Shown here: piece by piece, positions 1-64,000 of the stretch | Layout: every line of letters begins with the position of its first letter | How positions within the stretch are numbered: position 1 is the stretch's first letter | Translations under genes and position numbers: made by a program | The notes under the pieces: model-generated | What the model saw: the letters and a program-made list of their open reading frames with translations, nothing else | Told to the model about the DNA's origin: nothing | Database searches by the model: none | NCBI GenBank assembly: GCA_964036195.1 | Contig: OZ038455.1 | Coordinates: 29,128,323 to 29,192,322, forward strand | DNA from: Sphaerolaimus hirsutus | Taxonomy: Eukaryota; Nematoda; Chromadorea; Monhysterida; Sphaerolaimidae | Reading direction: 5' to 3' | DNA: 64,000 nt

Positions 1-238
1 CTACATCACATCAGAACATAAGAGTGAACTATCTTTTAATGATTTGCTGCTGTTTTTGTCTCAGTAAACTCAGCGCAACAATAAAAAATATCAAAGTGAG
101 TTTATCATAAGCCTGGCTAATTATGGTGGCATTTTCAAATTAAGAACTCGCTAACAAACTTACACATTTGTCTTTGAATATCACTAAAAGGTTTTTAAAT
201 ACAGAGTCTGCTGTCTGGGTATGCAATACAATACAAGC
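1..238. other. AT-rich sequence, no feature seen
   Basis: No open frame, repeat end or RNA signal was recognised here. It is the left flank of the hAT-F element that starts at 239. Confidence 0.4.
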
Positions 239-709
239 CAGAGTTGTGAAAAGTACCGAACTGTTATCAAAGTATGCGTATGTGTAAAGTATTTGGTTTT
301 TACTCACTCCCAAGTACAGAAAGCGTAAAGTAAAATATTTTAACTTTTACTTGCAAGTAAATGAAGGTAAAATACTTTTTTTCTCCCAGAAAGCATAAAT
401 GCGAGTATTTTTTTCTCAGAAAATCGATAAAGGGCTAAAATTGCCTCTTGTGAGAAAGGAGAGAGCTTCTCTTCTTTCTGAGAAATGTAGAAGAGATCAT
501 TATGAATGTTAATAAGTATTCTTTATGTTATTGAATAGCACAAATACTCTTTCTGTATTCGCAAAATTATTATACTGTACCTGAGTACTCCCAAAAAGTA
601 AGCGTACATGTGAGTACAGATACTTGTTCAAAGTATGCATATGCGTATTCACTCGGTACTCAGGTATGTGTACTTTTTGAGTTAAAGTAAATACACATTA
701 ACAACTGTG
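239..709. mobile_element. hAT-like MITE, family hAT-F (CAGAGTTG ends)
   Basis: The left end is CAGAGTTGTGAAAAG and the right end CAACTGTG, the inverted-repeat pair seen in better copies at 5678-7523, 18132-26332 and 50375-51158. Flanking 8-mers ATACAAGC (231-238) and ATGCAAGA (710-717) match at 6 of 8, so this is an older insertion. The interior is made of GTAAAAGTGAGTACTTTT-type blocks on both strands. No coding sequence. Confidence 0.6.
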
Positions 710-734
710 ATGCAAGATAGTAAGCGTCACACAC

Positions 735-1045
735 TGGAAAAAATTGTATACCATATTTATTGTAATACTAGTATGTATTCTATTTTTTGTTAACTTTTCT
801 ACCATGTAAACTTTTTTGGCTTCTAATAGAATGGCATACCTCCAATAGAACGGCAGGTTTTGGCACGTTTTTGCGCTCACGAAAACAATAGAACGGCAGC
901 CTCTTATAGAATGGCACCTCCAATAGGATGACAGGCTGTCATCGTATTGGACGTGCAATTCTATAGGAGGCTGCCGTTGTATTGGAGCTGCCGTTTTACT
1001 CGAGGTATGACTTTCTATTAGAAGAAATACGGTATTGTGTTGGTT
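735..1045. repeat. Inverted-repeat element with CTCCAATAGAACGGCAG motif
   Basis: The block CTCCAATAGAACGGCAG and its close variants occur several times in both orientations between 835 and 1000. The right end AGAAATACGGTATT resembles the terminal CCGTATTTC of family TA-1. A diverged relative with similar wording lies near 50920-51010. Boundaries are approximate. The remaining sequence to 1322 shows nothing recognisable. Confidence 0.5.
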
Positions 1046-1322
1046 GAATTATTTTAGATGGAACTTATTTACATTTTTATCAAATTTGCAAAGTTGTTCA
1101 TCTGTCGATGTCACTTTTTCTGCATTTAGATAGGTATGTGCTTAAACAGCATACTTAAAACCAACATTCCGGTGACATCATTCAACAATATATGGTATAT
1201 CCGATTGCAAAGTACACCCACAGTGCATAATAAATACTCAACAGATTAGCCGCGCATTTACCTAAATACATTTCTACTAAGTAAAAGAGAAAATGTGAGA
1301 TGTGAAAGCATCGAATTCATTA

Positions 1323-1858
1323 AGCGGGAATTAGAGCTCAGCGTCGATTCGACGTGAAATGACGACGTGAAATAACGTCGTGAAATTAATTACACGAGTG
1401 TGGATCATGCTACGGGTCTACAATTTTCTAAGGATAATATATGAATCAATACCTTAATCGTGTCCAATACTGGGTGTTATCAGCCACAACTAGAGCGAAT
1501 TGAAAAATTCAATTTTTATCATTCCACGTCATCATCATTTCACGTCACAGTGTCAGGGAACAACTTGACATTTCACGTCAGACTGCTGCTTGCAAAAGTC
1601 TGACGTGAAATGTCAAGTTGTTCCCTGACACTGTGACGTGAAATGATGATGACGTGAAATGATAAAAATTGAATTTTTCAATTCGCTCTAGTTGTGGCTG
1701 ATAACACTCAGTATTGGACACGATTAAGGTATTGATTCATATATTATCCTTAGAAAATTGTAGACCCGTAGCATGATCCACACTCGTGTAATTAATTTCA
1801 CGACGTCATTTCACGTCATCATTTCACGTCGAATCGACGCTGAGCTCTAATTCCGGCC
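1323..1858. mobile_element. PIF/Harbinger-like palindromic MITE, family PIF-1, copy 1
   Basis: A 536-bp near-perfect palindrome. The arms start AGCGGGAATTAGAGCTCAGC and run about 260 bases to a small centre near 1590-1600. It is flanked by TTA on both sides (1320-1322 and 1859-1861), the target size of PIF/Harbinger elements. The motif GACGTGAAAT repeats along both arms. A second, more diverged copy lies at 33705-34107 with TAA flanks. No coding sequence. Confidence 0.8.
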
Positions 1859-1861
1859 TTA

Positions 1862-2791
1862 GGGGCGAAGTGCTTGTGGCTACTACGTGTCAACTTTCCG
1901 TTTTTCATAGCAGAGTTGTTAAAATTACTAAACTTTTTTTCAATGTTTAGGTAGATGTTATATGTATAGGTAAATATATGTATAAAATGTCTATAAAGTA
2001 AATGTATGTATATGTATGAAATACTGTTTTAATCACGCCAGAGTACAGACAGTGTAAAAGACTCACCCTGGCATGAGTACATGTGAGTGGGGAAATTACT
2101 TTTTTTAAGAAAATGTAAACACAAGTACTTCTTTCCAGAAAAGTGTAGAAGAAAACACTTTTCCAGGAAAATGTAAAAGTGAGTACTTTTCTCATAGAAT
2201 ATGTAAATGTGGGTACTTTGTTACGACACCAAAAAATGCCAAAAGCAGTGATTAAAGTATTCCTGTAAATTCCTCTTAGTGATTTTTTTCAAGCGGAACT
2301 GGTCCCGTTAGCGGGATGATGTAATGTAGCCTTCTATTTCTCATTTTTATTTTTTCTGTGACGCTATAACTTGGGATATTGCCGTGATATTTGGATACCA
2401 TTTGCGGCACGCACGCGCACGCGCACACGTGTGTCAGTCAACTGATCAACTACTACACTTGGCATGTAACCCGCTTGGCATGTAGACCCGTTGCGGGGGT
2501 CCCATGGGAGGGCTGCTCAGCTAGTTATCTATTCCGTGGCTACTATCCCCTGATATCTCCATAAATCGCTCAACTATCTGGGTATCTATGTGGAGCAAAC
2601 TTTGAGCAGATTTCCCCAGTTTGCTCTAACAATCGCTAAATTTTGCTCCATTTTGTCAATTTTGCCAAGTATACATATCATATATATTTTAGCCTCAGCA
2701 GGCCCCCAAATTAATTTTCAGCTAGGTATCTATACTTCCGGCGGAGGGATTTGCTATCTATGAAGCCCCCGCGATTGTCAAAATTTGGAAA
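1862..2791. other. Non-coding; one-ended hAT-F fragment plus unassigned sequence
   Basis: A hAT-F left end (GCAGAGTTGTTAAAATTAC) begins near 1911 and its GTAAAAGTGAGTACTTTT blocks run to about 2220, but no right end with a matching duplication was found. From 2220 to 2791 I see no gene. TGGCATGTAACCCGC near 2460-2490 resembles the motif clusters at 62085-62190 and 63460-63620. Confidence 0.45.
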
Positions 2792-2799
2792 CCCCTGAT

Positions 2800-3791
2800 T
2801 AGTGATGGAAAAAGCGCCAGGCTTTTAGCGCCAAGCGTCAAAAGCGCCATGGCGCTTTTCCGATCCACGGCGCCAAGCGCCAATGGCGCCAGAGCGTTTT
2901 AGCGCCAAGCGCCAAAAGCGCCATGGCGCTTTTCTGGACCACGGCGCCAAGCGCCAATGGCGCCAGGAAGCTATAGCGCCAAAGGCCAATGGCGCCAGCG
3001 CCAAAGTGAAAACGCTTTTTATTATGCCGCACGATGTCCCAAACAGCCTCCTCCAGAAAATTTTTTTCCAGCTATCTACACAACCTCCGCGAGAGTCAAA
3101 ATCAAGGGGGTTGGATTGGGTAGATACACTCATTTTCGGTGGGTGCATCTCAAGGGGAGAGTATTATTTCTATAGCTCACTCAGACCTGGCTGAATTTCA
3201 AGGGGTAAATACGAAGTGGTAAATTTCGAGTGGGTAGATTGAAAAAACCCACCTTGAATAACACCCACTCGAATAACACCCACTTGAGTAACTTCCCCTC
3301 CAAAACTTACTGACGAAATTATAACTCACTGGGGTCCTATTCGAGGATACACGGTAGCTGAAATTGTGAGTAAATGAGGAGCAATTTTGGACACCCTACC
3401 TATGCAACATTTCAATTTTTTTAGGGTACTCACAGTGATCAAATTTAACAGGGCTTGGGAACAAAAATTTTGTCAGGTGCAAGAAGTCATTAAGTCCACT
3501 TGTTTACTTGACTTCTTAATGGAATTTTTTTAATAATGGTTGGCGCTTTTTGGCGCCATTGAAAATGCTGGCGCCAGGCGCCAATCGCGCCGCCAGATCA
3601 TGGCGCCAAGCGCCAAAAGCGCCATGGCGCTTTCTCAGATCCCGGCGCCAAGCGCCAATGGCGCCAGAGCATTTTAGCGCCAAGCGCCAATGGCGCCAGA
3701 GCATTTTAGCGCCAAGCGCCAAAAGCGCTATGGCGCTTTTTGCTTTGGCGCTAGCGCCAGGCGCCAGCGCCATGGCGCTTTTCCATCACTA
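2800..3791. mobile_element. hAT-like MITE, family hAT-A (GGCGCC arrays), copy 1
   Basis: Ends are TAGTGATGGAAAAAGCGCC and its inverse TTTTCCATCACTA. It is flanked by a perfect 8-bp duplication CCCCTGAT (2792-2799, 3792-3799), the hAT hallmark. Both arms are arrays of AAAAGCGCCATGGCGCTTTT and GCGCCAAGCGCCAATGGCGC. The AT-rich middle (about 3100-3360) carries a diverged CTTGAATAACACCC block related to TA-1. Open frames through the arrays are by-products of the stop-free repeat. Confidence 0.9.
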
Positions 3792-3843
3792 CCCCTGATC
3801 CGTCGTCGACATGCCAAACGGTTTACATGCCGACAGGTACAGG

Positions 3844-4261
3844 TAGGGTTCAAACGGGATCCCGATCCCGATCCCGGATCCCGTGAAATTCCGGGATTTA
3901 GCAGTCCCGATCCCGATCCCAAAAACTTTCAATTCCCAATCCCGAGAAACTCCAAAGTCCGGGATCCCGATCCCGGAAAAATTAGTGGAAATTATCAAAA
4001 GTGAAAAAATGACGTTTTTGCATGCAAAAATGTGAACGCAAACCCCCAGCGTTCATTTTATGCCACTTTTCTGGCATCCAACAGTGTTTTGAGACCTTTA
4101 TGAACAACTGTGAACGCCAGAACATTGGCCAAAAGCTCTATCCCAATACCCCAATCCCGATCCCGAAAAAATGTCAATTCCGACCCCGATCCCGATCCCG
4201 TGACCCCAATCCCGGCCAATCCCGATCCCGATCCCGAAAACTCAATCCCGTTTGAACCCTA
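3844..4261. mobile_element. hAT-like MITE, family hAT-C (GATCCC arrays)
   Basis: The ends are TAGGGTTCAAACGGGATCCC and its inverse TTTGAACCCTA, flanked by a perfect 8-bp duplication GGTACAGG (3836-3843, 4262-4269). The interior consists largely of GATCCC repeats in both arms around a unique centre. A right-end fragment of the same family lies near 42690-42752 inside another element. Confidence 0.88.
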
Positions 4262-4272
4262 GGTACAGGCCC

Positions 4273-4445
4273 GTGTCAACTGGTTTGTTTCAACTCAGAT
4301 TTCGGCTTCACGAGTCGCACAAAGTTCTGTGCACAAATGCACAATGTTGAAGACTGAATGAATGAAAATGCAGGTGCATTTGGAGATAGCTGTGCGACAC
4401 CTCTGTGCGAAGCCGAAATCTGAGTTGACAAACACCAGTTGACAC
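4273..4445. repeat. Short foldback repeat
   Basis: GTGTCAACTGGTTTG and CAACTCAGATTTCGGCTTC at the left are repeated in inverse at the right, so about 55 bases of each arm can pair around a short centre. No target duplication was identified. Confidence 0.6.
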
Positions 4446-5634
4446 ATTGTCCCTCACCAGTTCAATTTCTCCTCTGTCTGATGGTTAAAACTGGGATGCT
4501 TGGAAGCTCCAGGCGAAAACTCTAGCTAATGCTATGTTCACATAAGCGCATGAATCCAGTATGCAGTAAAGTAAACACAAAATAAATAGGTAGGATAGTG
4601 TTTACTCTGATGTATGCACTATATATCAAACTTGCTAGTCGGCTGAATGTAAAAAAGCAGAGTACTAATGATGATTACCTTTGCCTTCCGACAGGAGTCT
4701 CCAAGATTTTTACCATCTGGGGGGTTGGATAGATAGAAAATCGCCCCTCCGGATAGATAGATAGCTGGAAAAAATTGGGGGGCATGCGGGGGTTCGATAT
4801 AAAGGTGGGGGTTCAGGGGGTAGGAGCGAAAGGTATACATAGATAGCTGTCGGTTTGGGGAGTTACCCCCAACCCCCCTCCCTCCACCCCCATTGAAGTT
4901 ACTGTAAACGGTGGATCGGGCATGTTCAGATTGGACACGATGTAGAGATGGATTATTATTGTATCCACTTTTACGCAATAAATTTCGCGGTAAAATTGTG
5001 TGCTTCAATAAATTCCAGCTTACCGTATTTCCTCGAAATACCCCCTTCACCCCGAAATACCTCCTCAAAATGGCCACTATGACTGTAAAGCCCCCAATTT
5101 GAGTGTAAATCAAAAAAGCTGCGGTCTCAGCATAGTTGTTGAAACGTATTTACGTTTACTCGATAAATACGGATACTCGAGTACTGCATAAATACGTTTA
5201 CGTTTTCTCCCGAAAAAGATACCGGTACGCACTTACTCGCGTACTTTTTGAAAGTACGCGAATACCGAAAACGCATTTAAGCGGTACATAGAAGACAACC
5301 TTTTGACAGACAGAAAGTGACAAAAATAGAACATTTTCCTAAAAATTAGTTATCGGGTTAAAAACCCCCACATATTTGATGTATTCTAGAGTACAAATTG
5401 GCTAAATTTCTGATTTTTACGTTTTCTGGAAGAAAAATACTCACTTTAACATTTTATATGAGAAAAATACCCATTTTTACATTTTTTGTGAGAAAAAATA
5501 CTCAGTTTTATGTTTTCTCTGAAAAAAGTAGTTTACTCACAGTTTACACAGTGTAAAAGTATTTAAAAAATACTTTACGTTTTCTGTACTCAGGGTTGAA
5601 TAAAAATAAAATACTTAAATAAAATCATATATAC
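4446..5634. other. Non-coding; remnants of TA-1 and hAT-F elements
   Basis: A single TA-1 end (TACCGTATTTCCTCGAAATA) sits at about 5022-5045. A diverged hAT-F copy begins near 5128 and runs to about 5600, with GTAAAAATGAGTA blocks but weak ends. G- and C-rich sequence at 4720-4900 is not assigned. No gene was found. Confidence 0.45.
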
Positions 5635-6005
5635 CCCGGGTATAACCCCACTGATCGTCCATGACTCTCCAATGCGACAGAGTTGCAAAAGTGTATTTAC
5701 ACTTACCCAAAATACCCGGGTAAATGGGTATTTATATTTACACTTACACTTACACTTTCATAAAATACCCATAAACTTTTTTTACACTTTCCTGAGCAAA
5801 ATACCCGGGTACAGAAAGTGTATTTTTTTCTTTCAGATGGCCCTGTTTTATGCTTTTGAGAAAGCATAAAATAGGGTCATGTACATAAAATAACTGCACA
5901 GTGCACACATGCAGTTATGCATTGAATGTTGAAAATATGACAAATGTACAAACTAGCCTTTGATCTCCAACCTTTCATCAGTACTTATGGTATTCTACAG
6001 TTCAT

Positions 6006-7056
6006 TGTTGGGATTCATGATGTTTGTTCTGTGCAACTATTTCCCATTTGATTCAATATAGCTGTTTGATAGCAGTCACTGAAGGAACACTATGAAGTAC
6101 TAACCAACCAAAACCACTCAACCCTCAAATCCAACATGGTGGACGACCTAAACCGTTTTCAATGCAGAGGGGATGGCTGCAGCATTGCTGCATGGCTGTG
6201 CTGACCTGCCAAGCTCTTCATTGGCACCTGCTCACCCATCCGCTGGGCACACAGCAGACCAGTGCCAACAAGCTGCTTCTATCCAGCTTCAAAGGAACCT
6301 ACACCTACAGCACCTGCTCACCCATCCGCTGGGCACACAGCAGACCAGTGCCAACAAGCTGCTTCTATCCAGCTTCAAAGGAACCTACACCTACAGCACC
6401 TGCTCACCCATCCGCTGGGCACACAGCAGACCAGTGCCAACAAGCTGCTTCTATCCAGCTTCAAAGGAACCTACACCTACAGCACCTGCTCACCCATCCG
6501 CTGGGCACACAGCAGACCAGTGCCAACAAGCTGCTTCTATCCAGCTTCAAAGGAACCTACACCTACAGCACCTGCTCACCCATCCGCTGGGCACACAGCA
6601 GACCAGTGCCAACAAGCTGCTTCTATCCAGCTTCAAAGGAACCTACACCTACAGCACCTGCTCACCCATCCGCTGGGCACGCAGCAGAAACGCTTCACAG
6701 GTGGGAAAGAGGTCTCCTTCAGTGCTGTCAGCTCGCGGTGTCCACTGTCACACCGGAGTGATCCAGACAAACAAAAGGGCACACTGGCAAGGGAGGTACC
6801 AGTCAGTTGCTTTCAGTGGTCTCGCCAGAGAGAGTGAAAGTGTGATGGTTTTGGTTCACCCTGTTCTTCCTTAACTTAACTTATCCCTAAAATTATCATT
6901 TTCTTAAGGGAGAAAAGGGGGAATATGTTGGGATTCATGATGTTTGTTCTATGCAACTACTTCCCATTTGATTCAATATAGCTGTGTGATAGCAGTCACT
7001 GAGAGAACACTATGAAGTACTAACCAACCAAAACCACTCAACCCTCAAATCCAACA
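6006..7056 (+). mobile_element. TRIM-like miniature LTR retrotransposon
   Basis: Two direct 131-bp terminal repeats (6006-6136 and 6926-7056) begin TGTTGG and end CCAACA and differ at about five positions. A primer-binding-site-like TGGTGGACGACC starts immediately after the left repeat at 6137. A polypurine tract, AAGGGAGAAAAGGGGGAA, lies just before the right repeat (6905-6922). TCAT flanks both sides (6002-6005, 7057-7060). The interior is only 789 bp and has no gag or pol domain, so it must depend on a helper. This is the terminal-repeat retrotransposon in miniature layout. Confidence 0.85.
6225..6689 (+). repeat. 86-bp tandem repeat inside the TRIM element
   Basis: The unit starting CACCTGCTCACCCATCCGCT recurs at 6225, 6311, 6397, 6483, 6569 and, partially, 6655. 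The full units look identical, so expansion is recent. As 86 is not a multiple of three and no plus-strand frame has a stop, all three frames stay open and encode the same 86-residue super-repeat in different registers. No known domain was recognised. Confidence 0.9.
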
Positions 7057-7834
7057 TCATCATACTTTTGAAAAAAAGGACAAGATCAATGGAAATTCAC
7101 CAGCTGAACACAAAGTCAACTGGCTTTTGCATTGACATTTGCTGCATGTCCATTCTTGAATTTAAACAGTGTGTATCGCATTGCTTAATCAGTAAAATAT
7201 CAACACTGAAAAAGTGCCATTATTAGGGAACTTCATACCACTACAGTATTTGTTACAGTATGAAATGTTTCATAAAATGCAGTAAAATGTGAAATAATGC
7301 ATGAAAATGACAAATAAAGTGATCTAAAGGTGAAAACAGTGGTGTTTTTTAATGCTCAACAGTGAGAGCTCTTTCTAAAAAAATTTTTACACTTACACTT
7401 TTTTACACTTTCCTAGGTATTTTTAAAATACCTTACACTTTTGGTATCCATACTCAAAATTTGGAAAGTGTATTTACACTTACACTTACACTTTCCAAAA
7501 ATACCGGTATTTTAACAACTCTGCAATGCGAGACGATCCTGAAATGGAAAAAACTTTCCCGACATACCAAAATTTACCTGCTTTGGAAAAGACGGAATAG
7601 AATAACAGAATTGTGTCTAAATTGCTAGGCGAGATATCGTCAGCAAAAAGACAAAATAACGTTGAAAATACAACGCGACTGCAAATTGACCCCTACAATG
7701 TGAGGCGAATAATTGTTTGTTTCCTGGCACCTACTTGACGAATACACCAACAAATAATTGCTACTCGCGTGTACATCCAAAGCGCGAGGGCAGCTCCGGT
7801 GAAAATCGGCAGAAACCCCGTCCATAATGCGAAG

Positions 7835-8346: not shown

Positions 8347-9721
8347 TAGGGCTCGAACTCGACTCGACTCGACTCGTGACTCGAGGGTGAAATGGGGTGC
8401 CGACTCGACTCGACTGACTCAACTGGAAAAATATGGCCCTGACTCGAGAGTCGAGGTTTTTGCCTGACTCAACTCAAAAATTCAGCAAATTTCGAGTCGG
8501 GGTTTCCCATTGAATCATATAAAAATATCAATTTTAATATGACTTTTAAACATATTTTTCAAAAAATTTTGCGCGCAAGCACACATTTCCGCAATGCATG
8601 CAGCATATCTAATTGCTTGTCATATCTATTCAATAATGTCTAAAGTCAAGTTTCTCAACTCAAGTTGCGATACAATTCTACAGAATGAAACACACACACC
8701 ATGTCAAATACATTCCACAATGTTGGCACTGACCCAAAAATATGTAATGTAGTATATTTAACTTCACTATTGGATTTGAATGAATGAATGAATATGAATA
8801 CAACAATGTCTAGGCAGTATGTGTCTTTGTCACCTTCTCCCGACACTTTGCATGACATTTCACATTTTACAGGGTCACCAGCCTCTGTAAACAAACACTC
8901 CCATTTAAATAGGTATAACTGGAAAAATCTCTGCTATTAAAAAACCAGGTCATTGAAAGATATTGTTTTCCATCCCCAGGCTGGTTTCATTTTTGTTTGT
9001 GGCAACAACAAGAAAGTGAACAGGGATGGTCCGGCCGTAAAGTAAACCCGGCCGTAAAGTAGAGGGTGCTACTTTAGTTTTTTACCTAGGAAAATGTAAA
9101 AATGAGTATAGGTGAAAGCGAGTCATCGCTATCCCTACCCATCGCGAATTATATTATTTCCGCTGTTATTTTACGCTATTTTTTCAGCCGTTTATATCCA
9201 TGGGAGTGATTTTTTGCTTTTTATGCACTCAAAAAATGTTCTCAATCACGTTTTCTGTACCCGCATACTTTTTCACGCGAGTAAGTGAGTACCGGTATTT
9301 TTTCGGGAGGAAACGTAAACATAATTACGCAGCACTCGAGTATACGTATTTATCGAGTAAACGTAAATACGTTTGTACAACTATGCCTTACGGCCAGATT
9401 TACTTTACGGCCGGGTTTACTTTACGGCCGAGTTCTCGCCAAAGTGAACATGTGTGACAAAATGTTATATTTTTGCTTAATCTTGATATTAAAATCAACT
9501 GTTGGCATTAGAGTGTGTGTGAAAACATTGGTTGAAGAACCTGTATCTGAAATTTCTGCAAGTATCATGTGAAAAAGTAATGCATCCGACTCGACTCGAG
9601 ATTTTTGCCTGACTCGACTCGACTTTTCACTGAATCACCCGACTCGACTTGCTGACTCGACCGGAAAAATTTTGGGGTTGAGACTCGAACTCGTTTGAAA
9701 AAAATCGAGTTTCGAGCCTTA
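8347..9721. mobile_element. hAT-like element, family hAT-D (GACTCG arrays), copy 1
   Basis: The ends TAGGGCTCGAACTCGACTCG and TCGAGTTTCGAGCCTTA are flanked by a perfect 8-bp duplication GCTGTAAC (8339-8346, 9722-9729). Direct GACTCGACTCG arrays lie next to both ends. The centre includes a fragment of the TGTCA family near 8835-8880 and a nested inverted repeat at 9033-9433. Confidence 0.9.
9033..9433. repeat. Inverted repeat with GGCCGTAAAGTAAACCC ends
   Basis: GGCCGTAAAGTAAACCCGGC at the left is matched by its inverse at the right, each with the motif doubled. The interior carries hAT-F-like GTAAAAATGAGTA and CGTAAATACG blocks. It interrupts hAT-D copy 1. Its duplication was not resolved. 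Confidence 0.6.
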
Positions 9722-13535: not shown

Positions 13536-13587
13536 TATATCTATTTTACAAGTAAATGTTAATACATTTGACCAATAGTGCTGCTTT

Positions 13588-52815: not shown

Positions 52816-55800
52816 TCATTGCACATCATTCGGCTTGTCACTCAAATTGGAGCAGACATTTTCAATCGTGCTCACAATCGTCTCCGTTTGCAGACCCATT
52901 TCACACAGGTTCGACAGGACGAACGAGTATTTCATGGCGTATGGGTTCTGCGAGATAAATCGGGGATAAAATTATGAGTCATTAGATTCAGTTATGAGTC
53001 ATGACCAGTGACGGGAAAGCGCCATGGCGCTTTTGGCGCTTGGCACTGTGGGTCAGAAAAACGCAACGTCGCTGGGCGCCAAAGTCCTGGCTCTTTTCTT
53101 TTCGCTAGTCTCTTCACAAAGGTGCCATACGGAAGTGATAACATAAATGTGAAATACGCAGTGCTTTCACTGGGGGGGGGTACTTTCATGTTCTGTAAAA
53201 TTTCATGCAACCTTTTTATTTCATGGAACATTTTTACCAGCCATTTCACATTTTTCATGACAATTCAAAAAGTCATATAAAAAAACACATTCAAATTCGT
53301 TTTTTTCTCTAGGTTTCCCATCATTAATGATAATCCTTTCTCACACCGATTATGGCCATAAAGTCAAGTATTCAACAGAACGAACCTGGCTCAATTTGAA
53401 GCACTTTTGGCTGAAATTCAGCACGGCCGCCTTGTGGCACTGGACCTGGCTGAAAGTGGTCGGGTGCTGGCTCATGAGCACACTTGGCAGGGTGCCAAAG
53501 GACTGGTGCGGCACCAGCGCGTTCACGATCCAGCCGACCACGTTGTCCACGTAGGCGCGTTTCTGCGATGCCATTTATTTGATTGTGGATTTATGGTTGA
53601 ATTTATGCTGGCGTGCAGAGTGTTGTTTTTTGACGAACTTGTCCATTGTTCATTTCAAATCCCTAAATTTGGTTAAACTGTACGGTAAACTTACTGTATT
53701 ACCTCGAAATACCCCACATAAATGAGTGTAAAGATTATGTCATTTTCAAAGACTGCAATTTGTGATCTGACGAAATAACACCCCCCTCTAAATACCCTTT
53801 TCCTCGATTAACCCCTTCCTCAAAATTTTCACTCTGAAAAAAACTCTGGGTGTATTTAGAGAAAGTATTTACTTCAATAGTATTTCAAACTTACGTTGTG
53901 TAGGTTAGGTAGGTGATGTTTGCAAAAAAATTACGTGTGCAACTATTTTGTGCAAAAAAATTACCTGCTTCATCCAATTGATATCCTTGAGGATCTGTTC
54001 CTTCTCCGCCTCGTTTGAGCTCAATTCATACTTCTGTTTTAGGTAATGCATGTAAATGTCGCGCGACTCCACTGGTGATAGGTCGGCCTGTAAATTTACA
54101 ATGTGATGCACTGTGCATATTGAAAACGAAATGCGTGACGATTAAAAAAGTTATTGCTTGTGAACTACACAATTTGCACAAATCCCCATGAAACTGCCAC
54201 TGTGAGTAAAATTCCAATTCCTTTGGAAATTTTCTCTCTGTCGCTTTTGTGACAGTGGTTTTGTAGAGGGGGGGGGGGTACCTCCCCAAATCTGCCAGCT
54301 TTGGCTTCTATCCCCCACCCCCCCCCCCTAAATCGCCAGCGATCTAGGTATCTGGAGCTATTCTGTGTAGTGGACACAGTCAACAAGCTGACAGCTACAA
54401 TGGCACATTTAGAAGAGGCTGCAGCTCGTTGACAAAGCTGACAGATCGCTGACAACAGTAAACATATGATTGTCAGTTCACTGTCAGCTAACTGTCAGCA
54501 CTTTGGTGTTCCCTGTGCTAATACTGTTAAGGCCGTTGCCGCCGCAGCATGTCAACCTTTAATAATGACTAGTGATGGAAAAGCGCCATGGCGCTGGCGC
54601 CTGGCGCTAGCGCCAAAGCAAAAAGCGCCATGGCGCTTTTGGCGCTTGGCGCTAAAACGCTCTGGCGCCATTGGCGCTTGGCGCTGGGGTCTGAGAAAGC
54701 GCCATGGCGCTTTTGGCGCTTGGCGCCATTTTCTGGTGGCGCTATTGGCGCCTGGCGCCGACATTTTAAATGGCGCCAAAAAAGCACCAACCATGATAAT
54801 AAGAAATTGTTATAATACGGTGAAATCGACTGCAGTTTATCAATTTTGAGGCAACTGAATAAATATTGATTAATATTAGGGTAGATGTTATATAAATAGA
54901 TGCCTACATCGAATAAAAGCAGAGGTGTTAAAATCGAGGTAAATCCCCTTTTATGCTTTGCTCCCAATTCTTTCTTGCAGTCTAAATCAGGGGTTCAGTC
55001 TGGCGTGGGTTGGAGGGGGGTTACCCCCCAATCAATGCTCCAGCTATCTATCTATCCCCGGGGGCGCTCAGCCATCTATCTAACCTGAGGCTAAATTTTG
55101 GGCTACTATCCGCCGAGCCCCCCACCCCCTCAAATCGACCAGATATGTATCTCTCCAGAGCGATTATTTGAGAAATTTTGCCCTGATTTAGTGGTTGTTT
55201 GAGTGGGCAAAAGTTCAATAGACTACTATGACTTCAGCGGTACGTCACTCACAGTTATGCACTCATTTTTCTACCATAAAATTGTAGAACTAATTTTTTG
55301 GCACTGGCGCTATTGGCGCTTTGCGCCATTACCCTCTGGCGCCATTGGCGCTTGGCGCTGAGGTTCAGAAAAGCGCCATGGCGCTTTTGGCGCTTGGCGC
55401 CATTTTGCTCTGGCGCCATTGGCGCTTGGCGCCGGGGTCAGAAAAGCGCCATGGCGCTTTTGGCGCTTGGCGCCGAAAGCCTGGCGCTTTTTCCATCACT
55501 AATAATGACTACGCCGCCACTGTGGCGTGGTGGTTAGGGCGCTCGTTTTCTTTATGAGAGGTGTGGGGTTCGATTCCCACCTGTGGTGAGTGCAATTTTT
55601 GCACTATTTCTTTTTCTAAAAACGTCACACAATCAAACCTGCTGTCTGGCTTCAGCCGGGGCAGTGGGCGGAGTTTTCAAGCCTTGGAAGTCTGCCACGG
55701 GCTCCTTGGTGATGCTGAGATCCCCGTACTGCATCACGTGGCTCTTGTTCGTGCCCGATTTGACCAGTTCGTATTGTTTTTCCAGAGTTTCCGCTTTCAG

Positions 55801-58800
55801 GACCTCCTGTGGTGAGATGGAAAAAGATTGATGTGGGTTGGAAATTTAGTTTCTAGGCAATGCACGTACTGTATACACTGAGTAATGATCAGAGTGAAAG
55901 CGTACTTTCGCTTACCCGAAATACCCGGGTATATGGGTATTTTCACTTACGCTTACGCTTACACTTTCATAAAATACCAGTATTTTAACAACTTTGGTAA
56001 TCACCCCGACCCCCCCCCCCCCTGTTAAGAAGTCTGATAAAAAATCACCGCCGTGAGAGCATCATTCAAGTCTAAAGAGTACACGGTATAAAGACTTGGC
56101 GGAAATCACACTCAGTATGGAAACCTACCCTAAACCATCTGTATAATGAACCAACAATTATACAGTTTTTCATCACAATATTTCGCTTTAACTATGGAAT
56201 AATTAATTACGAAATTTTCACAAGACCTTATGCACAAGATTATGGTCGGATTCTGCGCCTACTTTGCGGTCCGCCGAGTACCGTATTTCCTCGAAATACC
56301 CAACCTCAAAATGGGCACTATGAATTTGTGGTCCGGGAAATGCATAACTAGGGTGTCAAAAAATTTTTTTACAGAAAACAGAAACGGAAACGGAAAAAAA
56401 TTTTCAGCGGGCGGAAAACGGTACGGAAAACGGGAAAAAAATTGCACTTGGTGGAAAACAGAAACGGAAATGGAAAAAAATTTCAGCAGCCAGAAAACGG
56501 AAAAAGAGGCCAGAAAAACGGAAACGGAAAAATCAAATTTGCATGGAAATGGATAAACTTAATGAATTTTTGCCAGAAAATGGATAAAATTTGCTGAAAT
56601 TTTGCTGGAAACAGAATAATTTTTACATCATTGACAAGCTGCATGAATTTTTACCAGTTTGGTTGATCAGAAAACAGAAAGTTGAGCCAGAAAAAGGTAA
56701 AATGAGGCGGAAAATGGAAAATTGAGGCAGAAAATGGAAAAAAAGGCAGAAAAACTGGATATTGAGGCTGAAAACGGAAAAAAGGCGGAAAAACTGAAAA
56801 TTTAGCCGGAAAAAGGAAAATGAGCCGGAAAAACGGAAACGGAAAAAAATGTTGCCGGAAAACGGAACGGAAAACGGAAAAAAAATTTCAGCAGCCGGAA
56901 AACGGAACAGAAAATGGAAAAAATTTGCCTGCGGAAAACGGAAATTTGACACCCTATGCATAACAGACGTTCAAAATGCTTACTGTGTTACATTAGAACA
57001 TCGTTTATACCATCTACATCCTTATATAAGGCTGTAAAAACTTATAAATGGTTATTGTTGCATTTTTCACGTTTTTCTCTCAAAATTTTCACTCTGAAAA
57101 AATAAACCCCCCGGGGGGTATCTGAGTAAATACTGTAGATGTGCAAAAGAACTGCGGTACAAACACACACTCACTTTGTCACTATCCTCCATCCACTTAA
57201 CACTAAACAAGTCACCCAGACAGGGCAGGTGCTCGGGGTTGGAACAATAGCAGCCCCACGAACTCTCGCTGGGATTGGACGCGGTCATGGCGTACACTGC
57301 GGGGGGGGGGGGGGGGTATATAGAGTGAGGGTTTTTACACTTTTACTCAGCCCCCGAGTACAGAAAGTGTAAATAATTTTTTTTTCATGAGTGAATGGAC
57401 TATTTCAGCTGGAAAACGTAAAAGTGAGTACTTTTGAGAAATGTCGTTAGTATACACATTGTCGACTACTAGGTATTCCCCTATTTTTGGCATGATTTTT
57501 TCCCCTTTTTTCTTCTACGCCTTGAAAACATCTAAATAAAAGCCTATCTGAAATACGTTTTCTGTACACGAGTACTTACAAAAGGTCTACATAGAATTAG
57601 TACATTAAATTTTTTCAGAGGTAACGTAAACGTATTTACTCTGTACTCGAGTGTACAAGTAAAGTAAAAGTAAATACCGTACTTTTCAATAACTACCGTA
57701 TATCCTCGAATAAGACCACCGGGGAGTTATTGTTTTGTCAGAGTTATTCAAGGGTGTGGAGTCATTCAACGGTGGGGAGTTATTCAACGGTGGGGAGTTA
57801 TTCAAGGGGGTCTTATTCGAGGATATTTTCGAGGATATATATTCGAGGATAGACGCACCGTTGATGTCGGTGGGCAAGAGCTCGTTGAACATGCTGCCCG
57901 ACTCGCAAGCTTCCATGTAGAACACGAGTTGGCTGAACTTTTTCGCCGCGTGCATCGACTTCAGCGCGCTGTTCAAATCGTCCGCGTGCAGCAACTGTGC
58001 GTATGTTTTTCCATGCAATTTTAAGGTGTTAAAAGAATGATCCCCTTCACAATTTATACACCGTATTCCCTCTAAATACCCCCCCCCCCTCGAAATACCA
58101 CTCCTCAAAATGGCCATTATGAATTTATTGCACCTCTCGCAATACCCCCCCCCCAAATCGAGTGTAAAGAGAACGTAAACGACAAAAGCTACAGTTTGTG
58201 ATCTGGACAATACAGAACACACGTTAAAAACAATGACTGTGTTATGTTAGAAACTTTCTTGGATTTTTTGATCAAATAAAAATTTCCCACTCAAAATATG
58301 CCCCCCTCGATAACCCCCCGTCAACTCAAAACCCAGTACAACAATACTACCACTAGAAATGTCAACTCAATGTCAACTCACATCTCCCATCGGGAATGCA
58401 ATGATGCCGGTGCCACCGTGATCTGCGAAATACACGAAAACTCTGTCGTTGGGGCCAGAGTGCAGCGTTTTTCCCGAGCCCACGCCCGTCATGTCTTCGC
58501 CTTGCATGATTTTCAGGAAATTTTCCGGTGTCACATCCTGTGAAATAGTGGGTTACTGGGTTTTTTTTTGGTTGATTGTGATAGTGTGTAACGTTCTAAA
58601 ATGGGTGTTTTTTCTGAAAATATTACATTTTGACATGGATTTGGATATGAAAGTACATGATATTTGGATACTACAGAATAAGATTTGGATACAATACTAT
58701 AAGATTTGGATCCACACGACGCTTTACAGGGTTTTTACATGACACCTGACATTCTACAGGGTCTTTTACATGACACCTAACATTTTACAGGGTCTTTTAC

Positions 58801-60769
58801 ATGACACCTGACATTTTACAGGGTCTTTTACATGACACCTAACATTTTACAGGGTCTTTTACATGACACCTGACATTTTACAGGGTCTTTTACATTACAC
58901 CTGACATTTTACAGGGTCTTTTACATGAAACCTGACATTTTACAGGGTCTTTTACATTACACCTGACATTTTACAGGGTCTTTTACATGAAACCTGACAT
59001 TTTACAGGGTCTTTTACATGACACCTAACATTTTACAGGGTCTTTTACATGACACCTGACATTTTACAGGGTCTTTTACATGACACCTAACATTTTACAG
59101 GGTCTTTTACATGACACCTGACATTTTACAGGGTCTTTTACATTACACCTGACATTTTACAGGGTCTTTTACATTACACCTGACATTTTACAGGGTCTTT
59201 TACATGACACCTAACATTTTACAGGGTCTTTTACATGACACCTGACATTTTACAGGGTCTTTTACATGACACCTAACATTTTACAGGGTCTTTTACATGA
59301 CACCTGACATTTTACAGGGTCTTTTACATTACACCTGACATTTTACAGGGTCTTTTACATGACACCTAACATTTTACAGGGTCTTTTACATGACACCTGA
59401 CATTTTACAGGGTCTTTTACATGACACCTAACATTGTACAGGGTCTTTTACATGACACCTGACATTTTACAGGGTCTTTTACATTACACCTGACATTTTA
59501 CAGGGTCTTTTACATGAAACCTGACATTTTACAGGGTCTTTTACATGAAACCTGACATTTTACAGGGTCTTTTACATGACACCTGACATTTTACAGGGTC
59601 TTTTACATGACACCTGACATTTTACAGGGTCTTTCACAGTGTCTGGGACTGCCCCCGGCCAGCACTCACACTGCCGACGTAGTCCTTGGGCGTGCCGGGG
59701 TACACGTTGGTGCCGTACGGTTTGTTGATGATGGTGCCCTTGGTCGGGTTCCTGCGTTTGGGGATTGTATTCGAGCAAACCTTGAAATTGTTGAGGGAGT
59801 GAACACGATCGAATTTTAGAGCGATTGTGCAGATTGTAGACGATTTGATTTGCTATTGTTTTTTAATCTAGGTAAACTTTTCCATTATATAGATTCTAAA
59901 GGCTATTTTCCACTGAAAATAGCTTATTTCTCACAAAATAGCTTCCTTCGAATACAGAGGACCCTGTATACCGTATCTCATAGAATATGTTCCCAGGGAA
60001 GTTATCTTTTTGTGAGAATTTTTTGACTGGGGGGTATTCGAAGGTGAGGAGTTAGGCATATTTTCTCTGAATATTGAGTGAAATGCATGAACAAAATATT
60101 CTCTGAAAGGTGCTAAATTCGTTGAATAAACGTTTGTAAGAATAAAATCCGATAAAAATTCCATCATTCATGCAATGAAAGACAGCGTATTTTTTTTACG
60201 TGGATGTCTTTCCCAACAACCAAAAAAGGGGGAGTTTTTCGAGGGGGGTTATAATTACCTCAGTCAGTTGGCAATTTGGTTGTTTGGGAGGGGCTTATTC
60301 CAACAAAAACAACCCACTGTGAATTTTCCGCAATGTCGTCATACATCATGACAACGATGTGGTCGTCGGGAATTCCATGAGCGCTCAGAATGTGGTACGA
60401 GTGGCAGATATCAGCCTGGTGGCACTCTCAGTCCCTGTAAAACGCCCTGTAAAATGTCAAATGTCATGCAAAGTGTCAAAAGTCATGGAAATTGCCCTGC
60501 AGAATGGCAACTCGGTTGCCATTTTGCAGGGCATTTTTCATGAGTTTAGACACTTTGCAAGACATTTTACATTTCACCGGGCATTTTACAGGGTCTGGGA
60601 CTGGCACCTGGTGCCTGTAGTTGTACCAGCCATTGGACCCTGCGACGAGCAGCGCCCAAATTTCGCCATTTTCCGCCCGCGCTTCTTGCTGCATCTGCTT
60701 CAAATTGGGCATGGCCCCAGCGATGGCAAGGCACGCGCTCAAAAGCGCCGCCAATTTGTAGAGGCTCAT
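52816..60769 (-). CDS. LGMN: Legumain (asparaginyl endopeptidase, peptidase family C13), complete
   Basis: Ten coding exons: 60608-60769, 60318-60415, 59670-59751, 58382-58537, 57859-57994, 57175-57296, 55639-55806, 53965-54087, 53386-53562 and 52816-52947. All junctions are GT-AG and the phases agree, giving 451 residues without a stop (the human protein is about 430). Residues 1-19 are a signal peptide ([14 protein letters not shown] core). The caspase-like fold spans about 37-290: [12 protein letters not shown] (43-54, with the substrate-binding Arg52 and His53 equivalents), [23 protein letters not shown] with catalytic His154, and EACESGS with catalytic Cys196 and Glu194. A conserved NKS glycosylation site lies near residue 272. 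The rest is the C-terminal stabilising prodomain, ending in a Cys-rich helical region. The enzyme cleaves after Asn (Asp at acid pH) in lysosomes or secreted digestive fluid and is made as a zymogen. The start codon was chosen because it directly precedes the signal peptide. Transposon debris was seen in all or nearly all introns, yet no exon is damaged. Confidence 0.94.
53005..53095. repeat. hAT-A-like left-end fragment in legumain intron 9
   Basis: CAGTGACGGGAAAGCGCCAT followed by GGCGCTTTTGGCGCTTGG resembles the left end of hAT-A, but no right end or duplication follows. The rest of intron 9 is unassigned. Confidence 0.5.
53694..53872. repeat. Degraded TA-1 element in legumain intron 8
   Basis: TACTGTATTACCTCGAAATA at the left and TGTATTTAGAGAAAGTATTT at the right are decayed TA-1 ends. 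CTCTAAATACCC and CTCGATTAACCCC blocks lie between them. Confidence 0.55.
54360..54515. repeat. GCTGACAG-motif repeat in legumain intron 7
   Basis: CAACAAGCTGACAGCT, GACAAAGCTGACAGATCGCT and CAGCTAACTGTCAGC, ending GTTCCCTGTGC, resemble the element at 17031-17379. Confidence 0.5.
54570..55501. mobile_element. hAT-like MITE, family hAT-A, copy 5, in legumain intron 7
   Basis: TAGTGATGGAAAAGCGCCAT and GGCGCTTTTTCCATCACTA ends are flanked by a perfect duplication ATAATGAC (54562-54569, 55502-55509). The arrays use AAAAGCGCCATGGCGCTTTT wording as in copy 1. The middle (about 54800-55280) is AT-rich with some C-rich sequence. Confidence 0.93.
55516..55588 (+). tRNA. tRNA-Arg(UCU)-like sequence, possibly a SINE head
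   Basis: 73 bases fold as a cloverleaf. The acceptor GCCACTG pairs with CTGTGGT (6 of 7). The A box is GTGGTGGTTAGG. The anticodon stem CTCGT/ATGAG closes the loop TTTCTTT (anticodon TCT). The T stem GTGGG/CCCAC surrounds the B box GGTTCGATTCC, and five T follow at about 55595. Oddities are a pyrimidine after the anticodon and an 8-base T loop. It lies antisense in legumain intron 7, seven bases after a hAT-A target duplication. A tRNA-derived SINE remnant is at least as likely as a working gene. Confidence 0.5.
55890..55996. mobile_element. Short hAT-F MITE (107 bp) in legumain intron 6
   Basis: CAGAGTGAAAGCG at the left and TTTTAACAACTTTG at the right are flanked by GTAATGAT and GTAATCAC (6 of 8). 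The repeated unit is CTTACG/CGTAAG, with CCCGGGTA in the centre, as in 5678-7523 and 50375-51158. Confidence 0.65.
56281..57135. mobile_element. TA-1 family MITE in legumain intron 6, interrupted by hAT-B
   Basis: CCGTATTTCCTCGAAATACC at the left and a decayed GAGTAAATACTG at the right lie between TA dinucleotides. It is a close relative of 13296-13535, which lacks the interruption. Confidence 0.85.
56349..56956. mobile_element. hAT-like MITE, family hAT-B, copy 2
   Basis: TAGGGTGTCAA and TTGACACCCTA ends are flanked by a perfect duplication TGCATAAC (56341-56348, 56957-56964). The relative at 13372-13379 has the single site. Most of the 608 bp is GGAAAACGG and decayed versions. Confidence 0.94.
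57319..57690. repeat. hAT-F-like fragment in legumain intron 5
   Basis: TTTTTACACTTTTACTC, GTACAGAAAGTGTAAA and GTAAAAGTGAGTACTTTT blocks are typical of hAT-F. Clear ends are lacking. The run of 17 G at 57300-57316, just upstream, adjoins exon 6. Confidence 0.5.
57696..57856. repeat. TA-1 half element abutting legumain exon 5
   Basis: CCGTATATCCTCGAATAAGA starts at 57696. GAGTTATTCAACGGTGGG is repeated, and TCTTATTCGAGGATAT closes it, but the final ACGG is missing and TTCGAGGATA is repeated up to the exon 5 donor at 57858. Confidence 0.6.
58060..58330. repeat. Degraded TA-1 element in legumain intron 4
   Basis: CACCGTATTCCCTCTAAATA, then CCCTCGAAATACC blocks and, at the far side, CCCCCCTCGATAACCCCC mark a decayed TA-1 copy within the intron. 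Confidence 0.5.
58724..59640. repeat. 31-bp minisatellite in legumain intron 3 (about 29 units)
   Basis: The unit TTTTACATGACACCTGACAT plus TTTACAGGGTC repeats head to tail. Variants swap TGACAT with TAACAT, and ATGACACC with ATTACACC or ATGAAACC, often alternating. The right end grades into CACAGTGTCTGGGACTG, the terminal sequence of the TGTCA transposon family (see 60428-60604), so the array looks like an expanded subterminal repeat of such an element. The left side (58600-58720) has the family's GATTTGGATAC motif. Confidence 0.92.
59968..60317. repeat. Degraded TA-1 sequence in legumain intron 2
   Basis: TACCGTATCTCATAGAATATG followed by GACTGGGGGGTATTCGAA and, further on, GTTTTTCGAGGGGGGTTATA are decayed TA-1 blocks. 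The ends are not resolved. Confidence 0.45.
60428..60604. mobile_element. TGTCA-family MITE filling legumain intron 1
   Basis: CAGTCCCTGTAAAACGCCCT at one end pairs with GGGCATTTTACAGGGTCTGG and GGACTG at the other. TGTCAAATGTCATGCAAAGT recurs inverted, and a central TGGCAAC/GTTGCCA hairpin closes it. Intron 1 is 60416-60607 (192 bp), so the element leaves only about 3 and 12 bases between itself and the splice junctions. Relatives are at 32911-33073, 43520-43950 and the intron 3 minisatellite. Confidence 0.75.
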
Positions 60770-60912
60770 ATTTGAGAAAAAAAATTTGCAAATTTTTTTT
60801 CCGGTGTGTCTTGTAAATGCCCGGCTGCTCGCGGGGTTTGGTTCCGAATTCGAATGTTTTCTGCGCGAGCGCCTGGTGCTAAATTGTAAAATGAGCCGTG
60901 ATAGCGGCAGAG

Positions 60913-60919
60913 TTTTATA
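60913..60919 (-). promoter_or_regulatory. TATA box of the legumain gene
   Basis: The minus strand reads CAATATAAAACTC, a TATAAAA box 144 bp upstream of the start codon; with the usual spacing, transcription would begin near 60885. GATA-type motifs flank it: TGATAG at 60899-60904 and TGATAAG at 60955-60961 (plus strand). GATA factors commonly drive gut genes in animals, which would fit a digestive legumain, but this is inference. Confidence 0.5.
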
Positions 60920-61025
60920 TTGACGGGAATCGTTCTGGCGGCTGACAGCCGCGGTGATAAGCGCCTGACGAGTCCGGCGATGTTTACGTTTGTCGTGATA
61001 CCGCAGCGGTATTTTTAAAAAATTA

Positions 61026-61113
61026 CCGTATTTCCTCGAAATACCCCCGGGGGTATCTTTCCATAGTGGAAATTTCGGGGGTATTTCGAAAGGTGTATTT
61101 CGAGGAAATACGG
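61026..61113. mobile_element. Minimal TA-1 element (88 bp) upstream of legumain
   Basis: CCGTATTTCCTCGAAATACC and its inverse TATTTCGAGGAAATACGG lie between TA dinucleotides with almost nothing else between, making a compact hairpin about 110 bp upstream of the TATA box. Confidence 0.88.
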
Positions 61114-61218
61114 TATGTATGCCATCAATGTATGTAGTGTGTAATGGTGAATAGCATCAGGTATGAAAATATATTTTGCTAAATTACTTTTGTATCAGGC
61201 TGTAAACTAAGTTTCTTA

Positions 61219-61687: not shown

Positions 61688-62084
61688 TTATATTTTTTGT
61701 GATCTCATAGAAATGCACATTACTGCGTCTAATTCTGTTGTACATTGGCCGATTTTGATGCCCTTCGAGTATGTTGGGGTTTGAGGTCTGGGCTATGACG
61801 AATTTTTTTGTTTGCTCGAATAATACCCCGGTCCCGAGATAAAGGGGATCTATAAAAAGATGGTCATTTTGAATGGCCGATCTGGTCATTGATTTTGAAG
61901 CTTTATAACTCAGCCATTTCTGGGCCGATTCTGATCGTTCAACACTCAAAATGATCAGGACAGCCTGCAGATTCAGTTGTTGCGGTCGGATTAGTGATGT
62001 CCAAATTCCGTATGCCGATTTGACCCGATTTTTGAACATGTAAAATAATCGAACGGCCAACCCAAACGAGTCTGCACCGCTCGG

Positions 62085-62190
62085 CATCTAAACCTGCATG
62101 GCATCTGGACCCGCGTGGCATGGATTTCTGCCTGCATGGCATCTAGACCCGCGTGGCATCTATCGTCCCATAGATGCCAAGCGGGCTGAA
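62085..62190. repeat. TGGCATCTAGACCCGC motif cluster, left
   Basis: TGGCATCTGGACCCGCGTGG and TGGCATCTAGACCCGCGTGG, then the inverse ATAGATGCCAAGCGGG. A mirror cluster follows at 63460-63620, so the two bracket the foldback at 62395-63465. Confidence 0.6.
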
Positions 62191-62394
62191 CCCCCCCCCC
62201 CCACACACACCCAGATGGTCTCATGGCTACTGTGCCTCATGGCGGGCTGTTGCATGTGCATGCGTGGTGTCCCAAAATGAATTCTGACAAAAAATGTTGT
62301 TTTTTTCATAAATTCATGCTGAACCTTTACTTGCACAGCTGAAATATTACTCGCTGAACCTGTCACCCTGCAACTTATTTTTATAGGAGTACAC

Positions 62395-63465
62395 CTGTTT
62401 ATCCAGTCCAGTGTATCATGTGCACAAAAAATATGAATTCAAAATGTCTAAAAATTTCAATGTTTTTCCCAATTATTGATTCAGATGTCAAGTGTCTCTG
62501 AATTTTTTTATTTAAATGCAAATATGAGTACTGTTTGAAATGGGAAAGAAGGTTAGATAAATACATGCATGCCCATGCAAATTCATACATACAATTCTTT
62601 AGTAACCCTGTAAGAGTGGCTACTAGAATAAATTTTTATCAAGCCATTTTTTTGTGGGAATTGCATTTTTGGACACCATGCATGTAAAAAGCCTCAGTGT
62701 TAAGGGGCAACTCTCAAATTGATTGATCATTTTTGGAAACAGCTTTGCAAACTTCCATGTGTATTGGGCCACCCTGTTCAAGTGGCTTTCAACATTGAGT
62801 TCCAGCAGTGTTCACATGGAATTTTATCTTATTTACAGGGTGGCCTACATTAGTGGATTCCTAGTTTCCCAGTTTAGTGCATATGGCTAAATTTCAATCA
62901 AACACAGTATTTGGATGAACACAACACTAAATATATTGATCAATATTTTATTTCAATTTCACATTTCAAATTGGCTGATTTTGAGAAAATTAAATTAAAT
63001 ATGATCCCTGAAAATCTGTTAAAAATATCTAATTTGACCATCCATTTCTAAGCGTTTCTAATCTGTGAACACTGCTGGAACTCAATGTTGAAAGCCACTT
63101 GAACAGGGTGGCCCAATACACATGGAAGTTTGCAAAGCTGTTTCCAAAAATGGTCAATCAATTTGAGTGTTGCCCCTTAACACTGAGGCTTTTTACATGC
63201 ATGGTGTCCCAAAATGCAATTCCCACAAAAAATGGCTTGATAAAAATGTATTCTTACAGGGTTACTAAAGAATTGTATTTATGAATTTACATGGGCATGC
63301 ATTTATCTACCCTTCTTCCCCATTTCAAACGGTACTCATATTTGCATTTAAATGAAAAAAATCAGAGACACTTGACATCTGAAAATAATAATTGGGAAAA
63401 ACAATGAAATTTTTACACATTTTGAATCCATATTTTTTGTGCACATGATACACTGGACATGTAGA
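62395..63465. repeat. Large foldback repeat (arms about 400 bp)
   Basis: Left-arm text such as CCAGTGTATCATGTGCACAA, AACCCTGTAAGAGTGGC, GTTAAGGGGCAACTCTCAAA and GAGTTCCAGCAGTGTTCACA recurs inverted between 63070 and 63460. The loop is about 62840-63065. The target duplication is unclear. Confidence 0.75.
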
Positions 63466-63620
63466 CCCCCCCTGCCCGCTTGGCATCTGGCCCTACCCGC
63501 CCGTTTGGCATCTATGCCACAGTCCACTTGGCATCCAGCATTGGATAGATGCTAAGCAGGTCTAGATGCCAAGCAGGCAGAAATCCATGCTATCCGGGTT
63601 CAGATGCCAAGCGGATTAGA
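63460..63620. repeat. TGGCATCTAGACCCGC motif cluster, right
   Basis: CGCTTGGCATCTGGCC, GTTTGGCATCTATGCC, AGGTCTAGATGCCAAGCAGG and CAGATGCCAAGCGGATTAGA mirror the cluster at 62085-62190. Confidence 0.6.
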
Positions 63621-63759
63621 TGCCATTTAGGCCTGACCCAACCCAAACCCCAACATACTCGAACGGCATCAAAATCGGCCAATGTACAACATAATGGGAC
63701 GCAGGAATGTGCATCACAGATCGCAACAAAATAAAAGAAACTTCGTTTACAGCCTGATA

Positions 63760-64000
63760 CCTTGACAAGAAACCAGAAATATTCGTTATGAACATACAGT
63801 GTTACTCTAATTAAATCAAATTTCATAAAAAGCAGTATACAAGAGCACATGAACTTATAAACAGATATTTAGATCCTGAAACTTATGTCCCACTTTAGCT
63901 TCTAAAACAAAAACTTCTAAGAAACCTCAACACTTGATAGTACCGTTTATGTCAATTACACCTCATCAGCCATTTCTGCCTGGATCATTTCTAAAAATTA
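63760..64000. other. No feature seen
   Basis: Unique AT-rich sequence to the window edge. Nothing was recognised. Confidence 0.4.

Follow-up and report, generated by a model that had tools for sequence, protein, structure and literature searches.

Probable hAT-type MITE-like elements with family-specific subterminal word arrays, mostly of one direction in both arms, in the nematode Sphaerolaimus hirsutus

The analyzed window is a 64,000-bp stretch (positions 29,128,323–29,192,322) near the end of the 29.3-Mb contig OZ038455.1 in the 348-Mb genome assembly GCA_964036195.1 of the nematode Sphaerolaimus hirsutus. It contains 16 elements with terminal inverted repeats (TIRs) of about 8–17 bp and 8-bp target site duplications (TSDs), perfect in 13 elements and matching at 7 of 8 positions in three (A3, D2, and F2). 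The elements fall into about seven groups, A to G, rather than the at least nine families counted in the initial annotation, and their arms carry arrays of short group-specific words, which are strong in groups A–E and G and weak in F.

Group A comprises five copies with the word GGCGCC or its variant AGCGCC: A1 (2800–3791; GGCGCC/AGCGCC, TIR TAGTGATGGAA, TSD CCCCTGAT), A2 (11378–12326; GGCGCC, TSD AATGTAAC), A3 (40343–42065; GGCGCC, TSD TATGGGAT/TATGGGAA), A4 (49930–51823; GGCGCC, TSD CCCAGTAC), and A5 (54570–55501; AGCGCC/GGCGCC, TSD ATAATGAC). The single B element lies on the plus strand at 3844–4261 and has the word GATCCC/ATCCCG, TIR TAGGGTTCAAACGGGAT, and TSD GGTACAGG. The GACTCG group is represented by D1 (8347–9721, plus strand; TIR TAGGGCTCGAA/TAAGGCTCGAA, TSD GCTGTAAC) and D2 (34612–35609, minus strand; TSD AATGGGAG/ATTGGGAG), and the GGAAAACGG group by E1 (41374–41945, plus strand; TIR TAGGGTGTCAA, TSD GTGATGAT), nested in A3, and E2 (56349–56956, plus strand; TSD TGCATAAC). 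Element G (32104–33532) has TIR TAACGATGGCA, a TTCGAA/AAATTCG array, and TSD GTTAGAAT. For these five groups, the copy numbers given in the initial annotation were borne out by the presence of both TSDs and TIRs. Two copies of F were found as well, F1 (28756–30538; TIR TAGCATTCGAA, TSD AGTGTGAT) and F2 (45755–47279; TSD TGCCTGGG/TGCCCGGG), with an AT-rich array (AAATATATA/AAATCAC).

The TTTACG/TTACAC family is represented by two elements with perfect TSDs. Element C (5678–7523; TIR CAGAGTTG, TSD CAATGCGA), in which arrays were scored, has the word AGTGTA/TTACAC, while C′ (50375–51158), nested in A4, has the TIR of C, spacers similar to those of C, the word ACGTA/TTTACG, and TSD GTCCTTAC on both sides. 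The interior of C contains an 86-bp tandem repeat (6224–6688, 5.4 copies, 99%). A third, 8.2-kb element with CAGAGTTG ends (18132–26332; TSD CAGGAGTC on both sides) showed no strong array. Its open reading frames (ORFs) at 19139–24403 are those of a retrotransposon without long terminal repeats (RVT_1, 1.3e-12; endonuclease matches were weak and under the cut-off), and no transposase domain was hit by the five ORFs analyzed from it.

The window was scanned for exact 8-bp duplications around inverted 11-mers, blind to the motif and to the terminal TA or CA. This loose scan returned 28 pairs, including the TIRs of all seven groups (that of D as TAGGGCTCGAA), but proves little on its own, since shifted controls were no lower (10–34). 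The strict scan required a TA or CA start, allowed at most one mismatch each in the TIR and the TSD, included a low-complexity filter, and covered 194 kb, namely the window and 13 random 10-kb pieces. It yielded 36 TSD+TIR candidates at the true offset vs 0, 4, 7, 6, 3, 2, 1, 1, and 2 at nine shifted offsets. Seventeen candidates lie in the window and 19 in the random pieces; a few of the former look like chance (e.g., 1263–5699 and 2348–5500). The strict scan missed C and D1, whose ends are more divergent, and reading CAGAGTTG on both strands added C′ and the 8.2-kb element.

Arrays were scored in 13 elements as the count of the commonest 6-mer in the outer 200 bp without the TIR (the cuts of A3 and D2 were off by one base) and compared with shuffles and 500 control windows taken from outside the elements. 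The count was 14–37 in 12 of the 13 elements and only 7 in F. Among the control windows, the 95th and 99th percentiles were 7 and 14 and the highest count was 24; no shuffle exceeded 11. The element score was reached by none of the controls for A1, A2, A4, A5, and E1, and by three to six for A3, B, C, D1, D2, G, and E2. For F, 35 controls did so, and its array is thus not significant by this measure; of the F family as initially described, the two copies stand, with a weak array. Together with the scan, these scores agree with the proposal of a layout common to many families beyond chance. It is not peculiar to the window either, since 12 of the 19 random-piece candidates carry a top word present at least 14 times.

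The motif had been said to fill, in many cases, most of the element. This is true of short copies, but in 15 window elements of 418–1,894 bp, 356 of the 381 motif sites are located within 200 bp of an end and 379 within 300 bp, so the arrays are generally subterminal. The placement of the motif in or beside the TIR was confirmed for A, B, C, C′, D, E, and F, where at least one end has a word no more than about 14 bp away, but not for G, where the nearest words are 19 bp from the right end and 63 bp from the left. CpG is present in 7 of the 10 words scored (A, B, B′, C′, D, E, and G) and absent from those of C, F, and the AGATAG group. By eye, random piece L008 contains at about 2504–3187 a further nested TAGGGTTG element with a AAAAACGTTTTTT ladder and TSD GCCAGAAC.

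A genome search for family B, in which 40 matches were scored of 2,609 first-look candidates, found at least 39 nearly full-length copies besides that of the window, with 92%–96% identity. All 20 fetched copies have arrays in both arms. TSDs were perfect in 15 of them, had one mismatch in two, and were not found in three (L019, L024, and L037, the 3′ end of the last being badly placed). The consensus was built from 20 sequences, comprising the fetched copies except L037 and the window copy; their lengths are 416–464 bp. Family B is therefore MITE-like (miniature inverted-repeat transposable element), being short, present in many similar copies, and devoid of a coding gene. Differences from the consensus amounted to 2/674 in the TIR, 33/2,612 in the motif, 53/2,241 in arm spacers, and 84/2,919 in the middle, which makes a gradient from TIR to motif (1.26%) to neighboring spacer (2.37%). 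Since the copies were selected by similarity and are not independent, these rates give the direction of the gradient and not its strength. The random pieces, free of similarity bias, contained five elements with B-type TIRs, four of them with arrays, and one B′ element (L016:8310–9063), which has the TIR start TAGGGTTCAAACG of B, 13 bp of TIR in common with it, and an ATATCG array (32 sites in the arms) instead of ATCCCG. In the remaining element (L008:7932–8466), the middle is palindromic and differs from that of B, and there is almost no ATCCCG array.

Eight copies of family E, six from the motif-free scan and two (L002 and L004) from the motif pattern, all contained the array. L001 and L003, also found by the motif pattern, were excluded because one TIR could not be located within one mismatch in the sampled piece. 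The E element in L004, with TSD ATCTATAC, encodes a 73-amino-acid remnant of the hAT dimerization region at 1885–2106 on the minus strand (Pfam Dimer_Tnp_hAT, 4.7e-07, 29.9 bits vs a cut-off of 21.4). Although only a remnant, it identifies E as a hAT element by sequence. TIRs of hAT elements are short and begin with TA or CA. The window elements have such TIRs, recovered by the loose scan without demanding TA or CA, which the later scans required, as well as 8-bp TSDs. Together with the remnant in E, these features uphold the initial assignment to hAT elements with subterminal repeats.

The direction of the word was compared between the left and right halves of 30 elements by its majority strand, using a word picked by hand for each element. 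It was the same in both halves in 27 elements, opposite in two (both F), and tied in one (G). The set omitted L008:7932–8466, L010:1852–2122, L013:6186–6435, and L015:7928–8408, which have no clear array. Also outside it were the 18132–26332 element, A3, the L002 copy of E, and all 20 B copies fetched from the genome. A3 and the L002 copy follow the same rule, bringing the count to 29 of 32. The rule holds in six groups (A, B with B′, C with C′, D, E, and CAGGGGTCTCC/AGATAG), and F and G depart from it. The bias is total in E, where oriented copies contain 203 CGGAAA and no TTTCCG, and modest in A (+10/−16 and +5/−6 in the two halves of A4). In the fetched B copies, ATCCCG is split 17–27 vs 2–3 between strands over the whole element. 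In the AGATAG group, it is common for one of the arms to contain just one site. Since the TIRs are inverted and the word runs in the same direction, one arm does not mirror the other, and a protein that reads direction would meet two different ends. Searches of the open-licence literature of PubMed Central (PMC) found no description of direct orientation of subterminal words; in PMC3260210, the phrase occurs solely within the title of a cited reference.

The families had been regarded as unrelated. This holds only in part, as C and C′, B and B′, and the subfamilies of A are relatives with different words. The starts of C and C′ are alike (CAGAGTTGCAAAAGTGTATTTACACTTACCC vs CAGAGTTGCAAAAACGTATTTACGTTTACCC), and in their left arms GTGTA/TACAC of C corresponds to ACGTA/TACGT of C′ at seven of seven sites, none being unchanged, while spacers differ at 16 of 104 positions. 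The same replacement was seen between L011 (C type) and L015 (C′ type), where six of eight sites were switched, two had another word (TACGC), none was unchanged, and spacers differed at 22 of 110 positions. A crude independence model gave 4.2e-12 for the left arm of the window pair, 4.4e-4 for the right, and 1.1e-7 for L011/L015. The 5-mers repeated at least four times that change together overlap AAGTGTAA. Among the top 14 words listed, other repeated words remained mostly unchanged between L011 and L015 (ACCCG 4/5, ATACC 3/4, GGGTA 5/7, and CCCGG 3/4), while in the window pair their persistence is less clear (CCCGG 2/4). Coordinated replacement of a word with spacers largely kept is thus observed in one sister pair and again in L011/L015. 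Because related ends carry ACGTA (window positions 5131, 9385, and 18132) or mostly AAGTA (239, 26332, and L015_7928), GTGTA may be the derived state. Group A copies are either rich in AGCGCC (AGCGCC:GGCGCC of 26:13 in A1, 27:11 in A5, 30:10 in L007, and 25:8 in L009) or in GGCGCC (8:34 in A2, 5:17 in A3, 3:25 in A4, and 6:33 in L017). Searches of the open-licence PMC literature likewise yielded no description of subterminal repeats changing in concert or co-evolving, or of binding-site turnover.

Two further motifs had been listed as families. GGTCCC was rejected, as no TSD with TIR was found at its 14 sites, six of which surround a foldback. TTTTAC is ambiguous: its large cluster is a 31-bp minisatellite (58723–59638; unit TTTACAGGGTCTTTTACATGACACCTGACAT, 29.6 copies), with similar words seen by eye within D1 and G, but clusters of four at 298–367 and 26154–26269 adjoin CAGAGTTG ends and were possibly meant. 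Short arrays of the CCCCCCTCGAATAACCCCCC type are scattered at many places in the window, and long foldbacks or nested palindromes with arms of up to 268 nt lie at 1324–1857, 15318–15859, 36524–37663, and 62406–63458. Exons of a legumain-like gene were noted on the minus strand at 57686–58246 (by eye) and 60476–61156 (Peptidase_C13, 22.2 bits, just below the cut-off of 22.8).

The Ac/Ds elements of maize have 8-bp TSDs. Like the elements described here, they possess, as reported, 11-bp TIRs and many 6-bp AAACGG subterminal words, which are bound by the Ac transposase (PMC3260210), and the word GGAAAACGG of family E contains AAACGG. Unlike Ac/Ds, several families with different words coexist here in one genome, and a possible further difference is that their words run mostly in one direction across both arms. 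Subterminal repeats bound by the BED domain or the transposase are also reported for Hermes (AAGT; about 200 bp per end are needed in cells; PMC10368747) and Herves (C[G/A]ATTCAT; PMC3143072), and the left and right ends of both are unequal. The Hermes site is AAGT followed by AT-rich DNA, and the Hermes ends, 449 and 464 bp long, contain 17 and 14 AAG(T/C) sites, while up to 37 copies of one 6-mer occur here in two 200-bp arms. Four hAT proteins are reported to bind words that correspond to the subterminal sequence of the element to which each belongs, and the preferences within the CGGBP/hAT domain family are for CGG, GCGC, or AT-rich words (PMC8097297). Related domains with diverse words matching their own ends are described there from the protein side, while the pairs of elements seen here record change at many sites on the side of the DNA. 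Coral CMITEs (PMC2872659) are likewise invertebrate MITEs of unusual anatomy, but are linked to piggyBac-like transposons and have a conserved internal region; the abstract of that paper does not mention motif arms.

Taken together, the elements are likely, for the most part, non-autonomous hAT-type cut-and-paste elements resembling MITEs, with the words forming putative docking arrays for transposase. Subterminal transposase-binding arrays of hAT-type MITEs are of a known kind; the same-direction rule and the word swap are new here. In the proposed mechanism, the transposase would cut at the short TIR, and the word ladder in the outer 200–300 bp of each arm would dock its N-terminal BED finger. 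Each transposase lineage would read its own word, which would make the words family specific. A shift of specificity in a lineage would then drive replacement, as elements with matching sites would have moved best while spacers drifted, and slippage would add or remove whole word units. Arms of the same direction would place direct repeats at both ends, a potential substrate for internal deletion that may help to make short copies. The roles of the words as binding sites, of the BED finger as their reader, and of specificity change as the driver of replacement are the steps that we infer. More tentatively, and with rather less than an even chance, the one-directional ladders may have been rewritten site by site in concert with transposase specificity, C and C′, and perhaps B and B′ and the A subfamilies, being records of the states before and after. 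The same scheme holds that a ladder could also tell daughter strands apart, because the word is mostly one-way and mostly contains CpG; conjecturally, with such a word the sites on one daughter would all be equivalent. The Ac transposase is reported to prefer one of two hemimethylated daughter elements (PMC3878927).

The docking interpretation has to be weighed against several observations that count against it. A regular-expression search for transposase cores in the sampled sequence found only the L004 remnant of E, and none for A, B, C, D, F, or G. Seven of the 19 random-piece candidates lack a strong array, and the interpretation is held slightly less firmly because of the B-TIR element L008:7932–8466, which is nearly array-less (commonest word just five times) despite a perfect TSD. 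The fetched B copies rank with the closest hits to the window copy, which biases their conservation upward. The right arms of C and C′ are less clean than the left ones, with three of eight sites switched exactly, five carrying other words, none unchanged, and 15 of 105 spacer positions different. For B and B′, 61 and 46 of the 500 shuffles reached the spacer scores, and pairing the wrong arms gave equally good ones, so by this test only their ends are homologous, and the idea of common spacers along the arms was dropped as not significant beyond the TIR and the adjoining GAAAAGTCA stretch. Finally, Ac is reported to need just three AAACGG copies and some Ds1 elements to move without them (PMC3260210), and additional transposase binding by the inner Hermes repeats is considered unlikely in cells (PMC10368747), which weakens the need for long ladders.

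The same data bear on explanations in which the words have no such role. In one of them, short repeats near the ends expanded and were homogenized by slippage or conversion, without any binding function. In its favor, whole-unit slippage is observed in B arrays, where 31 of 43 indels measure exactly one 6-bp unit (deletions, 9 of 18; insertions, 22 of 25); the 74-bp higher-order period of the A arms and the nearly array-less L008 element also fit. The slippage suggested initially is therefore real but insufficient alone for C vs C′, since the changes there fall on scattered sites and most spacer bases are retained. The recurrence of the layout in several families, ending within 300 bp of the termini, and the lower divergence of B motif columns than of spacers, which conversion between units could also produce, argue in the same direction, and we regard such neutral growth as unlikely. 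Mutation bias, such as CpG decay of a GCGTA ancestor, is an improbable cause of the sister words: GCGTA is present at some L015 sites (two in L015_9324) and would decay to GTGTA, but ACGTA to GTGTA takes two changes, ATCCCG to ATATCG retains the CpG, related ends have ACGTA or mostly AAGTA and not GCGTA, and the CpG observed/expected ratio of the window is 0.80. The origin of the arrays as microsatellites in individual insertions is barely credible. The large TTTTAC cluster is a minisatellite, and the L008 element shows that an array can be nearly missing from one relative, but the presence of the same arrays at different sites in all 20 fetched B copies and all eight E copies refutes a post-insertion origin for these two families, and with it the possibility that arrays are absent from most copies.

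Elements of such look are probably common in Repbase. If the rule holds, the elements themselves could directly reveal the words that hAT transposases bind. Pairs that share TIRs and spacers but not the word would offer natural material on how a DNA-binding finger and its dozen dispersed sites change together. The same-direction rule would provide an anatomical clue to how the left and right ends are discriminated, and perhaps to the choice of chromatid.

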